DNA from: Mesorhizobium silamurunense
GTDB lineage: Bacteria > Pseudomonadota > Alphaproteobacteria > Rhizobiales > Rhizobiaceae
Reading direction: 5' to 3'
NCBI RefSeq assembly: GCF_014843825.1
Contig: NZ_JHQR01000063.1
Coordinates: 1 to 64,000 of the forward strand
Length of the DNA stretch: 64,000 nt
Below the pieces are notes generated by a model. That model did not search any database, was not told where the DNA came from, and saw only the letters and a program-made list of their open reading frames with translations. Positions 38,784-42,448 of the stretch are shown here, piece after piece. Numbering within the stretch: position 1 is the first letter of the stretch; every line of letters begins with the position of its first letter. A program made the translations under genes and the position numbers.

Positions 38784-40112
38784 ATGTCCAACCGGCTGAA
38801 AGTCACGCCGAACGATCTCAGCGCATTCTGGATGCCGTTCACGGCAAACCGGCAGTTCAAGCAGGCGCCGCGCATGTTCGTGTCCGCCAAGGACATGCAC
38901 TACACGACGAGCGACGGCCGCAAGGTGCTCGACGGCACGGCCGGCCTGTGGTGCGTGAACGCCGGACACTGCCGGCCTAAGATCACCGAGGCGATCCAGC
39001 AGCAGGCAGCCGAGCTCGACTATGCGCCGGCCTTCCAGATGGGTCACCCGATCGTGTTCGAGCTGGCGAACCGCCTGGTCGATATCGCGCCCAAGGGCAT
39101 GGACCATGTCTTCTTCACCAATTCCGGCTCGGAATCGGTCGAAACCGCGCTGAAGATGGCGATCGCCTATCACCGCGTCAGGGGTGAAGGCTCGCGCACC
39201 CGCCTGATCGGCCGCGAGCGTGGCTATCATGGCGTCAATTTCGGCGGCATCTCCGTCGGCGGCATCGTCAGCAACCGCAAGATGTTCGGCACGCTGCTCG
39301 GCGGCGTCGACCATCTGCCGCACACCCACCTTCCGGAGAAGAACGCCTTCTCGAAGGGCGTGCCGGAGCATGGCGCGGAGCTGGCGAACGAGCTGGAACG
39401 CCTGGTTACGCTGCACGATGCCTCGACCATTGCTGCGGTCATCGTCGAGCCGGTCGCGGGCTCGACCGGAGTCATCCTGCCGCCGGAGGGCTATCTGCAG
39501 AAGCTTCGAGAAATTTGCACCAAACACGGCATATTGTTGATCTTTGATGAAGTGATCACCGGCTTCGGCCGCCTCGGCGCGCCGTTCGCGGCGGATTATT
39601 TCGGCGTCGCTCCGGATATCATGACCACGGCCAAGGGCGTCTCCAACGGCGTCATCCCGATGGGCGCGGTGTTCGTCAAGAAGGAGATCCATGACGCCTT
39701 CATGACCGGCCCCGAGCACATGATCGAGTTCTTCCACGGCTACACCTATTCGGGCAACCCGATCGCCTGCGCCGCGGCCCTCGGCACGCTCGACACCTAT
39801 AAGGAAGAAGGCCTGCTCACCCGTGGCGAGGAGCTGGCGCCTTATTGGGAAGACGCGCTGCACTCGCTGAAGGGCGAGCCGCATGTCATCGACATCCGCA
39901 ATATCGGCCTGATCGGCGCGATCGAGCTGGCGCCGATCGCCGGAAGCCCGACTAAGCGGGCCTTCTCGGCCTTCGTCAAGGCGTTCGAGCGTGGCGCGCT
40001 GATCCGCACCACCGGCGACATTATCGCGCTGTCGCCGCCACTGATCATCACCAAGGGCCAGATCAACGAGCTGATCGACCATGTTCGGGATGTGTTGAGG
40101 TCGATAGATTGA
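38784..40112 (+). CDS. Class III aminotransferase, probably beta-alanine:pyruvate transaminase
   Basis: 442 aa PLP enzyme of the omega-aminotransferase group. The PLP lysine is K284 in MTTAKGVSNG; upstream are LIFDEVITGFGRLG (PLP-binding Asp) and FTNSGSESVETALKMA. The N-terminal FWMPFTANRQFK is typical of beta-alanine-pyruvate aminotransferases. Ribosome site AAGGGGAA before ATG 38784 is nearly the same as that of preT. It would convert beta-alanine or 3-aminoisobutyrate, the end products of the pathway encoded around it, to malonate or methylmalonate semialdehyde. Confidence 0.9.
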   Translation: MSNRLKVTPNDLSAFWMPFTANRQFKQAPRMFVSAKDMHYTTSDGRKVLDGTAGLWCVNAGHCRPKITEAIQQQAAELDYAPAFQMGHPIVFELANRLVDIAPKGMDHVFFTNSGSESVETALKMAIAYHRVRGEGSRTRLIGRERGYHGVNFGGISVGGIVSNRKMFGTLLGGVDHLPHTHLPEKNAFSKGVPEHGAELANELERLVTLHDASTIAAVIVEPVAGSTGVILPPEGYLQKLREICTKHGILLIFDEVITGFGRLGAPFAADYFGVAPDIMTTAKGVSNGVIPMGAVFVKKEIHDAFMTGPEHMIEFFHGYTYSGNPIACAAALGTLDTYKEEGLLTRGEELAPYWEDALHSLKGEPHVIDIRNIGLIGAIELAPIAGSPTKRAFSAFVKAFERGALIRTTGDIIALSPPLIITKGQINELIDHVRDVLRSID

Positions 40113-40130: not shown

Positions 40131-40177
40131 CCCTCCCCCTTGAGGGGAGGGTGGCCGCGAAGCGGCCGGGTGGGGTC
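40131..40177 (+). repeat. Left inverted-repeat arm of element 1
   Basis: 47-bp composite palindrome: CCCTCCCC stem with GGGGAGGG, then GGCCGCGAAGCGGCC, then GGGTGGGGTC. It begins 18 bases after the aminotransferase stop and ends 44 bases before the DUF559 start. Confidence 0.85.
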
Positions 40178-40221
40178 CGCGGCGACGCGCGCCGACCTGA
40201 TCTTTTGCGAGGTCGTTCCTG

Positions 40222-40647
40222 ATGCCTAGGACCCGCGTGAGTTTCGAAATGCGGCAAAAAGCGCGCGCGCTTCGAATTCACGCGACCAAAGGTGAAAACC
40301 TGCTTTGGTATGAACTGCGCGAATTGAAGGCTTCTGGTCTCAAGTTCCGCCGACAGTGCCCCATAGGGCCATACATCGTCGACTTTGCCTGTCTCGCAGT
40401 AAAGCTGATCGTTGAGATCGACGGCGATTTGCATGAGCATGACAAAGGCAAACGCCATGATGCTGTCCGCGACGCCTATTTGCGTTTACTCGGATACGAC
40501 GTCTTTCGTGTCGATGAGCCCGATGTCATAAACAGTGCCTGGCACGTCGCGCAGGTGATCAAGGAAAAGGCCGCGCGTATGGCCGGCGACCCCACCCGAC
40601 CGCTTCGCGGCCACCCTCCCCTCGAGGGGGAGGGGGACGCCGCGTAA
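40222..40647 (+). CDS. DUF559 (Vsr-like) endonuclease-domain protein
   Basis: 141 aa. Typical DUF559 pattern: ARALRIHATKGENLLWYELR, FRRQCPIGPYIVDFACL, LIVEIDGDLHEH and a C-terminal GYDVFRVDEPDV. The VDF Asp, the ExDG Glu and the following His are the likely metal-binding residues of a PD-(D/E)XK-type nuclease. No methylase or other restriction gene is near. Residues from about 122 (DPTRPLRGHPPLEGEGDAA) are encoded by the right inverted-repeat arm, so the domain proper ends near 120. The gene lies within the repeat-bounded segment. Its natural role is unknown. Confidence 0.88.
   Translation: MPRTRVSFEMRQKARALRIHATKGENLLWYELRELKASGLKFRRQCPIGPYIVDFACLAVKLIVEIDGDLHEHDKGKRHDAVRDAYLRLLGYDVFRVDEPDVINSAWHVAQVIKEKAARMAGDPTRPLRGHPPLEGEGDAA
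40588..40634 (-). repeat. Right inverted-repeat arm of element 1
   Basis: Reverse copy of 40131-40177 with 45 of 47 bases identical. Overlaps the 3' end of the DUF559 gene and ends 28 bases before the amidohydrolase start. Confidence 0.85.
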
Positions 40648-40662
40648 ATGAGAGGACTTTGA

Positions 40663-41913
40663 ATGACCGCCCCCGGCGAGAATCTGCGTATCAATTCAGA
40701 CCGTTTGTGGGACTCCTTGATGGAGATGGCGAAGATCGGCCCCGGCATTGCCGGCGGCAACAATCGCCAGACGCTCACCGATTCCGACAGAGAAGGCCGC
40801 GAGCTCTTCAAATCCTGGTGCGACGAGGCCGGGCTCACGATGGGCGTGGACCAGATGGGCACCATGTTCATGACGCGCGCCGGCACCGATCCGGACGCGC
40901 TGCCCGTCTATGTCGGCTCCCATCTCGACACCCAGCCGACAGGCGGCAAATATGACGGCGTGCTTGGCGTGCTCTCAGGGCTCGAGGTCGTGCGCTCGCT
41001 CAACGATCTCGGCATCAAGACCAAGCATCCGATCGTCGTCACCAACTGGACGAACGAGGAGGGCGCGCGCTTCGCCCCGGCCATGCTCGCTTCCGGCGTG
41101 TTCGCGGGCGTCCACACCCAGGACTACGCCTATGCCCGCAAGGATCTCGATGGCTTGACCTTCGGCGACGAGCTGAAGCGGATCGGCTGGGTCGGCGACG
41201 AGAAGGTCGGCGCGCGCAAGATGCAAGCCTATTTCGAATACCACATCGAGCAGGGACCGATCCTCGAAGCCGAGAACAAGCAGATCGGCGTGGTCACCCA
41301 CTGCCAGGGCCTGTGGTGGCTGGAATTCACGCTGACCGGGAGGGAGGCGCATACCGGCTCGACGCCGATGAACATGCGCGTCAATGCAGGGCTGGCCATG
41401 GCGCGCATCCTGGAGATGGTGCAGACGGTCGCGATGCAGAACCAGCCCGGCGCCGTCGGCGGGGTCGGGCAGGTGAAGTTCTCGCCCAATTCGCGCAACG
41501 TTTTGCCGGGCACGGTGATCTTCACCGTCGACATCCGTTCGCCCGATCAAGCCAAGCTCGACGGCATGCGCGCCCGCATCGAGAAGGAAGCGCCGAAGAT
41601 CTGCGAGCCGCTCGGCGTCAAATGCTCGGTCGAGGCCGTTGGCCATTTCGATCCCGTGACCTTCGATCCGACGCTGGTCGGCCGTGTGCGCACGGCCGCC
41701 GAAAAGCTCGGCTACAGCCACATGAACCTCATTTCGGGCGCCGGCCACGACGCCTGCTGGGCGGCCAAGGTGGCGCCGGCGACCATGGTCATGTGCCCCT
41801 GCGTCGGCGGCCTCAGCCACAACGAGGCCGAGGACATCTCCAAGGAGTGGGCGGCGGCAGGCGCCGACGTGCTGTTCCACGCGGTGGTCGAGACAGCGGG
41901 GATTGTGGAGTGA
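40663..41913 (+). CDS. Zn-dependent carbamoyl-amino-acid amidohydrolase (beta-ureidopropionase-like, PydC/HyuC)
   Basis: 416 aa, M20 metallopeptidase-like fold of the N-carbamoyl-amino acid amidohydrolase/allantoate amidohydrolase group. Metal ligands are in GSHLDTQPTGGKYDGVLG (His, Asp), NEEGARF (Glu) and YFEYHIEQGP (His). The dimerisation domain has AHTGSTPM. From context it hydrolyses N-carbamoyl-beta-alanine to beta-alanine, the third step after PreTA and HydA. AGAGGA precedes ATG 40663. Allantoate or other ureido substrates are possible. Confidence 0.88.
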   Translation: MTAPGENLRINSDRLWDSLMEMAKIGPGIAGGNNRQTLTDSDREGRELFKSWCDEAGLTMGVDQMGTMFMTRAGTDPDALPVYVGSHLDTQPTGGKYDGVLGVLSGLEVVRSLNDLGIKTKHPIVVTNWTNEEGARFAPAMLASGVFAGVHTQDYAYARKDLDGLTFGDELKRIGWVGDEKVGARKMQAYFEYHIEQGPILEAENKQIGVVTHCQGLWWLEFTLTGREAHTGSTPMNMRVNAGLAMARILEMVQTVAMQNQPGAVGGVGQVKFSPNSRNVLPGTVIFTVDIRSPDQAKLDGMRARIEKEAPKICEPLGVKCSVEAVGHFDPVTFDPTLVGRVRTAAEKLGYSHMNLISGAGHDACWAAKVAPATMVMCPCVGGLSHNEAEDISKEWAAAGADVLFHAVVETAGIVE

Positions 41914-41928: not shown

Positions 41929-42074
41929 CCCCCACCCCTAACCCCTCCCCACAAGGGGGAGGGGGACTGGCATCGCCGCCGCTTTCTCCGGTAGCGCAGC
42001 ACTTTAATAGTGGGATGATGATAGCGCGGCGCCAAACCTCCCTCCCCCTTGTGGGGAGGGATTGAGGGTGGGGG
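41929..42074. repeat. Inverted repeat doublet of element 2
   Basis: Arms 41929-41966 and 42037-42074 (38 bp each) are inverted copies matching at 33 of 38 bases. Each contains the CCCTCCCC ... GGGGAGGG hairpin, with loop ACAAG or CTTGT, and a flanking GGGTGGGG-like tail. The 70 bases between them show no gene. The layout resembles a REPIN-type doublet. It begins 15 bases after the amidohydrolase stop. Confidence 0.8.
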
Positions 42075-42109
42075 TACTCGCCTTGGCACCGACCGCGATC
42101 GACCCGACC

Positions 42110-42448
42110 ATGATCACGCGCGCAAGGGCGCTGCGCCGAAACATGACGGAGGGCGAACGCAAGCTCTGGTCTGAGTTGAAAGAGTTTCGTCGCCTTTATG
42201 GGCTGCATGCCAGGAAACAGGCACCTATCGGGCCATACATCGTGGACTTCGTCCTGCATGAGAAGGGCGTAGTCATCGAGGTGGATGGCGAACACCATTT
42301 CACGCCGGAGCGGATGGAGAAGGACCAAAAACGTGACGCCTGGCTTGGCCAGCAAGGCTATCGCGTGCTCAGATTTTCTACTGGCGAACTGGCGGAATCC
42401 TTCGACGGTTGTGTGGAAGAGATATTGCGGGAAGTTGGCGTGATGTAG
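42110..42448 (+). CDS. DUF559 (Vsr-like) endonuclease-domain protein
   Basis: 112 aa from ATG 42110; an in-frame TTG at 42062 would start inside the repeat arm and add 16 residues. Family motifs: ARALRRNMTEGERKLWSELK, KQAPIGPYIVDFVL, VVIEVDGEHHF and GYRVLRFSTGELAE. It keeps the same likely catalytic residues as the DUF559 protein at 40222 but the two differ at most positions, so they are not a recent local duplication. Confidence 0.86.
   Translation: MITRARALRRNMTEGERKLWSELKEFRRLYGLHARKQAPIGPYIVDFVLHEKGVVIEVDGEHHFTPERMEKDQKRDAWLGQQGYRVLRFSTGELAESFDGCVEEILREVGVM

Follow-up and report, generated by a model that had tools for sequence, protein, structure and literature searches.

BoxC/PIT/TM repeats, which have been found in more than 260 genomes and tied to genome instability, share with the DNA repeat considered here their pyrimidine, purine and purine third strands, their intergenic position, their frequent occurrence as inverted pairs and their wide distribution (PMC4666352, sections consulted). 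According to the same sections of that 2015 triplex survey, no mobility function had ever been found near these repeats, their origin was left unanswered, and an enzyme partner was not known to the authors (PMC4666352). REPIN-RAYT systems offer a second comparison. As in those systems, we find palindromic repeats that form inverted pairs, a large number of copies without a gene, and the gene of a cognate enzyme beside matching repeats; unlike in those systems, the enzyme, a DUF559 protein, is a PD-(D/E)XK nuclease and not a Y1 (HUH) transposase. REPIN-RAYT repeats end in a GTAG or CGTC tag. On our best reading, the DUF559-repeat system would be an analogue of REPIN-RAYT and not a member. The segment 40131-40647 described here is, in the interpretation towards which we lean with slightly better than even confidence, a gene-bearing copy of a repeat-based mobile element that also has gene-less derivatives, and whose DUF559 nucleases would act on the repeats and spread them.

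The window, that is, the whole stretch of 64,000 nucleotides of Mesorhizobium silamurunense DNA that was analysed, holds two DUF559 genes with the following features:

40131-40177, plus strand: left arm, with pyrimidine strand 40131-40138, purine strand 40144-40151, hairpin 40153-40167 and purine third strand 40168-40175
40222-40647, plus strand: DUF559 (PF04480) Vsr-like nuclease gene, 141 amino acids, from the open reading frame and a Pfam match
40588-40634, minus strand: right arm, repeating the left arm in inverted orientation, within the 3' end of the gene's coding region
41929-41965, minus strand: related-type repeat upstream of the second DUF559 gene (ends set by eye)
42040-42074, plus strand: related-type repeat with its third strand toward the second DUF559 gene (ends set by eye)
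42062-42448, plus strand: second DUF559 gene (Pfam domain at about 42116-42436; TTG start listed mechanically)

To the left of the first segment is a gene ending at 40112, which we take to be aminotransferase-like, and to its right one starting at 40663 that is presumably hydantoinase-like. When one arm is inverted, the two are identical at 45 of 47 positions, and at 55 of 62 after extension to 62 nt. A preliminary description, made from the letters of the window, had the gene enclosed by these 47-bp arms; the framing holds, although "enclosed" is slightly too strong because the open reading frame extends 13 bases past the right arm. The same description took the right arm to be translated as the C-terminal tail of the protein, and this is borne out by the reading frame 40222-40647, in which the arm codes for most of the tail predicted to be disordered. 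It also held the arms to be too alike for chance, with which two comparisons agree: inverted flanking arms with an alignment score of at least 20 occur at 17 of 35 first loci (a set that included L008 and L013 at wrong positions) versus 1 of 43 random placements, and, in a second set, at 25 of 50 testable loci versus 0 of 200 (3 of 53 loci were omitted, the match not being at the expected place). The second DUF559 gene of the window has a repeat pair upstream only, with no downstream arm, and the third strand of the repeat at 41929-41965 points away from the gene. In the source genome, of 7.04 Mb, a profile search found six DUF559 genes, and such repeats adjoin all six, four of them lying between arms and two having an upstream pair only (by eye). 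A known RNA family was considered and rejected, since the sole Rfam gathering match of the window, to Cis52_sRNA (RF02647; 18558-18731, minus strand; 67.9 bits versus a gathering score of 56), lies elsewhere.

Each arm consists, in order, of a pyrimidine strand, a short loop, the complementary purine strand, a hairpin-bearing loop and a gene-facing purine third strand; in the left arm, it is the third strand 40168-40175 that faces the DUF559 gene (we assigned the roles of the strands from the sequence and from the mirror test below). By this arrangement, the window arms are long-loop versions of the BoxC/PIT/TM intrastrand-triplex repeat, from which they differ in carrying a 15-nt hairpin in the second loop, as opposed to 3 nt in BoxC/PIT/TM as described in the sections of the survey consulted. 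The two nested hairpins per arm of the preliminary description are thus present, but are better read as a pyrimidine strand, a purine strand, a hairpin in the second loop and a purine third strand; and the "rhizobial hairpin repeat" that it named is real, but is the known BoxC/PIT/TM triplex motif, which was missed there, and its linkage to DUF559 goes far beyond rhizobia. The purine strand and third strand of the window arm, GGGGAGGG and GGGTGGGG, are one difference from a mirror image. Across 319 arms from 142 of 160 DUF559 loci, which are partly related to one another and so are not independent draws, the gene-facing side agrees with the mirror of the arm's own purine strand at a mean of 6.74 of 8 positions, against 6.20 with purine strands swapped between arms (sd 0.033; highest of 200, 6.31), 6.05 with the bases of each strand shuffled, and 6.08 for the outer side of the arms. 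The direct, unmirrored match is also raised (6.38 versus 6.18 permuted), but less than the mirrored one. A genome-wide scan of M. silamurunense for the strict E. coli-type pattern of the first hairpin gave 0 copies, and we therefore speak of the same architecture, not of the same sequence family. Variants of the arm were also seen. Another repeat is nested within the first hairpin at L207, L210 and L225; the pairs at L002, L160 and L167 have their hairpins inside and their third strands outside, the reverse of the order around DUF559 genes; and at the spots where the DUF559-linked types occur, L382 and others show one more type of Mesorhizobium pair, whose hairpin loop is longer.

The linkage of DUF559 genes with triplex-type repeats is strong. 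In 80 regions, from 60 other genera and 20 Mesorhizobium genomes (hand-picked, mostly strong matches, one per genome), a hairpin stands within about 300 bp of 71 of the 80 DUF559 genes, as against 73 of 968 other genes of the same regions lying more than 1.5 kb from DUF559, and on both sides of 37 versus 4; with the nearer genes included, the control values are 174 of 1201 for any side and 9 of 1201 for both. Pyrimidine-first hairpins in the 60 other genera reach a density of 6.67 per kb within 100 bp of DUF559, versus 0.048 per kb at 6-9.8 kb. Purine-first hairpins, counted as a composition control, were absent within 4 kb of DUF559 in either group, a weak control because such hairpins are rare everywhere. 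Within 350 bp, a hairpin is found in 52 of the 60 other genera (both sides, 33) and in 19 of the 20 Mesorhizobium regions (both sides, only 4). That the two merely share intergenic insertion spots by coincidence is an idea to which hotspots occupied by repeat pairs or, in other genomes, by unrelated sequence might lend something, but small control genes of the same regions have a hairpin on any side in 20 of 309 cases and on both sides in 0 of 309; this gene-level control leads us to reject it, and its probability is negligible. In a set of 80 named loci, the best 80 of at least 552 found through one peptide pattern, a hairpin lies within 350 bp in 72 and on both sides in 45, and the arm score is at least 20 in 46 (L261 was discounted as a masked-base artefact, which leaves the hairpin counts unaffected). 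These loci are mainly from Proteobacteria, with others from Chloroflexi, Gastranaerophilales, Aminicenantes, Spirochaetes and Patescibacteria and from Desulfobacterota-type and Nitrospirota-type records, several of the records being metagenome bins whose labels may be wrong. The enrichment of DUF559 genes next to the repeats, for which the preliminary description proposed to look, is therefore strongly positive far beyond rhizobia.

The type of arm, moreover, is matched to the type of protein. We typed 91 DUF559 domains (78 different), from Mesorhizobium loci and one same-family relative, by their nearest arm. Both sides carry the same arm type in 30 of 31 two-sided elements, and arm types change 6 times on the protein tree, versus 30.9 times with shuffled labels (0 of 200 as low), few forks of the tree being resolved and shared descent of single loci contributing to the match. 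The type C locus L005 is distant and sits on a long branch, so that its placement is unsure, and L009 and L025, labelled B by a coarse rule, differ in their hairpin. Judged by these sequences, arm type in Mesorhizobium follows DUF559 clade, and not merely through species history, because the genome of the window holds types A, B and C side by side. An enzyme gene flanked by its own repeat type is a feature of REPIN-RAYT as well.

The association extends to whole genomes. Among 288 genomes of the class, the genome of the window excluded, 48 of 71 with a full DUF559 (best E < 1e-20) have at least five copies of the first-hairpin pattern, versus 14 of 217 without, and among genomes of at least 3 Mb the numbers are 41 of 57 versus 9 of 83; 2251 of the 2509 copies are in DUF559-bearing genomes. 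Genomes with and without DUF559 are both present in 29 families; DUF559 goes with a higher copy number in 22 of these and a lower one in 5, and 2 are tied (sign test, p 0.0015). The PF04480 searches of control genomes name no E. coli, though YcjD of K-12 scores 167 bits. By comparison, Y1_Tnp, the RAYT-type family, shows no link with the repeats in the 288 genomes (12 of 59 versus 50 of 229, p 0.86), and PF01797 (Y1_Tnp) has no match in the M. silamurunense genome; we reject a RAYT-type transposase as the partner. The suggestion of an endonuclease-based counterpart of RAYT thus survives as a fair analogy, but the RAYT transposase family itself is unlinked. A DUF559 gene that is mere cargo of an element moved by another enzyme could account for the repeats that persist in the 14 of 217 genomes without a full DUF559; we know of no joining chemistry for the PD-(D/E)XK fold, which also speaks for such a passenger. 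Mere cargo would not be expected to belong to one family in 72 of 80 named loci from several phyla, nor to come in matched subtypes, however, and Y1_Tnp is excluded as the mover at the level of genome association, so that we hold this to be the least probable but one of the four alternatives that we weigh, and very doubtful.

The gene-bearing element also has gene-less counterparts, which number hundreds in some genomes. A 24-mer at the right inner end of the element occurs 113 times in 10 genomes (one mismatch allowed). In 29 of 30 fetched copies no DUF559 domain is present within 900 bp upstream, the sole exception being L003, an element of the window's own genome; the left third strand precedes the 24-mer by 32-67 nt in 19 of the gene-less copies, the left end not being measurable in the other 10. 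Gene-bearing and gene-less copies would thus stand in the relation usual between a mobile element and its non-autonomous derivatives. The gene-less copies recall MITEs in being short, in having terminal inverted repeats and in sharing an inner end with the gene-bearing element (29 of 30 copies); they differ from them in that no target-site duplication was found, the flanks having diverged, and in that the DUF559 element is without a known transposase. Behind one small gene, 30 orthologous spots have a DUF559 domain start within 250 bp in 13 cases and a short pair of the same type in 4, the rest having other pair types or remnants (types assigned by eye). At the site of the window, the element is present in 3 of 30 spots (the window, L176 and L191) and shortened, without a full DUF559 domain, in L190; in 8 there is a gap of 66-71 bases free of such arms, one spot retains a lone palindrome, a different insert of 0.85-1.05 kb occupies 16, and one is cut off by the contig end. 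Gene-less pairs, solo hairpins, inverted interiors and plain gaps resembling terminators are seen at two further sites. The syntenic comparison that the preliminary description called for thus reveals sites without the element, but neither exact insertion ends nor a target-site duplication were found at the sites compared, the flanks being too diverged. Other configurations were noted along the way. The interior of a gene-less pair is opposite in orientation in L350, L355 and L356 versus L352, between the same arms, as if inverted. Comparison of L154, L155, L157 and L169 with L164, L167, L158 and L162 shows two gene ends that lie 3 bases apart in some Mesorhizobium genomes and are separated by repeat pairs or long unrelated inserts in others.

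Both DUF559 proteins of the window match the Pfam family well above its cut-off of 20.6 bits (the first, 100.9 bits, E 4.8e-29; the second, 104.5 bits). They differ from Vsr in that neither reaches the NCBIfam Vsr cut-off (TIGR00632; 97.85), the second scoring 17.7 bits and the first having no match. The closest solved relative is NGO0050 of Neisseria (3hrl; sequence E 7e-37, fold E 6.1e-7), followed by the homing endonuclease I-Bth0305I (3r3p; sequence E 1.6e-4, fold E 2.6e-4) and Vsr (1vsr; fold E 0.011), with which the fold of the catalytic domain is shared. No intron is seen, a difference from I-Bth0305I. Foldseek also lists Toxoplasma gondii mitochondrial ribosome chains (best E 2.1e-4). 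The structure model has a mean pLDDT of 84.2, with residues 127-140 below 50, and predicts these C-terminal residues to be disordered. Twelve columns are invariant in 42 aligned relatives, including E25, E65, D67 and H71 (numbering of the window protein). Comparison of the window gene with two same-site orthologues gives a dN/dS of 0.04-0.05, and other comparisons with finite dS give 0.04-0.25, many dS values exceeding 1 and five comparisons being without a finite dS; by these values the gene is under purifying selection. Enterotoxin B chain profile matches (E 0.02 or worse) are weak and were taken as chance, and a known defence system was rejected, the PADLOC matches being weak (DpdF, E 0.0022 and 1.3e-5; homing endonuclease, E 0.00091).

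The kinship with I-Bth0305I, itself a mobile nuclease, raises the possibility of homing: older repeats would have moved by other means, and DUF559 would cut repeat pairs, into which its gene would be copied by repair against a gene-bearing pair. Besides the kinship in sequence and fold, the orthologous spot with a gene-bearing element in some genomes and a same-type gene-less pair in others is in line with homing, as is the weak homing-endonuclease match (E 0.00091) of the second window protein. Repeats are scarce in genomes without DUF559, however; clade-matched subtypes and the inner end that copies share are better accounted for if gene and repeat have a common origin; and no other mover was found, Y1_Tnp being the only family compared. 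Homing into repeats thus ranks next after the DUF559 element, as an unlikely alternative.

A different role, as a host nuclease for structures or mismatches whose adjoining repeats are binding, terminator or autoregulation sites, is suggested by the low dN/dS, by the recurrence of loci of one DUF559 clade with an upstream pair only, and by the many repeats that sit just behind stop codons (by eye). In Caulobacter, VsrA, which has a DUF559 domain, elicits an SOS response in cells without the ScmA cytosine methyltransferase, which fits this role too and, as a DNA-damage response, implies that DUF559 members act on DNA in cells (PMC12907096, part consulted). A host-side nuclease would nonetheless leave unexplained the hundreds of gene-less copies in some genomes, their shared inner end and the lack of repeats in genomes without the gene, and we regard it as improbable, more so than homing.

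The YcjD protein of E. coli K-12 belongs to the DUF559 family (167 bits) and has been placed among PD-(D/E)XK nucleases (PMC1189080, part consulted). Copy no. 9 of the 23 TM repeats listed for K-12, in the list as consulted, sits in the fabI-ycjD gap, and a degenerate BoxC hairpin overlaps the final 12 bases of ycjD, stop included. By chance, one of 23 copies would come to lie 250 bp or less from such a gene with a probability of about 0.004; this was one comparison, picked once the proximity had been noticed. Some E. coli strains are reported to have fewer TM copies (PMC4666352). The presence of ycjD varies: 3330 of 5426 genomes match a fabI-ycjD-sapF query over 80% or more of its length at one place; eefRABCD and ycjD are described as alternating at the fabI-ycjD site (PMC12817139, 2026, part consulted). 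Two E. coli strains without ycjD that we opened (L231 and L230, around fabI) have efflux genes at the same place.

In the DUF559 element that we favour, a DUF559 (Vsr-like, PD-(D/E)XK fold) nuclease gene would lie between two inverted triplex-foldable ends, each with a variable hairpin in its second loop, and the many short inverted pairs and single hairpins of the same genomes would be its non-autonomous derivatives and remnants. The ends may fold once they become single-stranded, as might happen in replication; the fold would be recognised by the cognate nuclease, which would nick beside it, and host repair or replication would then copy the unit or join it elsewhere. We lean towards this element because of the linkage, the subtype matching, the co-occurrence in genomes, the shared inner end and purifying selection, and also because of the mirroring of the third strand, the fold near I-Bth0305I and Vsr, and the lack of a Y1_Tnp link. 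PD-(D/E)XK nucleases hydrolyse DNA, and strand joining would need host factors, which counts against it. We also count against it the lack of a target-site duplication and of exact ends, the mere 4 of 20 two-sided Mesorhizobium regions, the 9 of 80 DUF559 genes without a nearby hairpin, the 14 of 217 DUF559-less genomes with at least five copies and the 5 of 29 families with the opposite trend. The same holds for the null result of the triplex survey, which, in the sections consulted, reports no correlation between triplex repeats and changes in the long-term E. coli experiment (PMC4666352).

Among the matches listed in the open-access literature, no paper joins DUF559 and triplex repeats, a report elsewhere being possible; none of the 14 open-access papers found to mention DUF559 has a title about repeats, and neither "DUF559" nor "ycjD" appears in the text of the triplex survey (PMC4666352). 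From the sequence comparisons, the DUF559 family is likely to be the partner missing so far for a widespread orphan DNA repeat. Evenly poised, in our judgement, is the broader proposition that it represents a new class of bacterial mobile element, with a lone Vsr-like nuclease gene and triplex-folding ends, that would be the source of BoxC/PIT/TM repeats in several phyla. Given a conserved partner enzyme, the origin of BoxC/PIT/TM becomes directly testable, and the partnership with a repeat is a clue to what a "domain of unknown function" does. Moreover, the system suggests that what RAYT transposases do for REP repeats may be achieved by different chemistry. If the proposition is true, E. coli YcjD would be a relic of the enzyme that once spread BoxC, and the DUF559 elements would be a case in nature where intrastrand triplex DNA is important.
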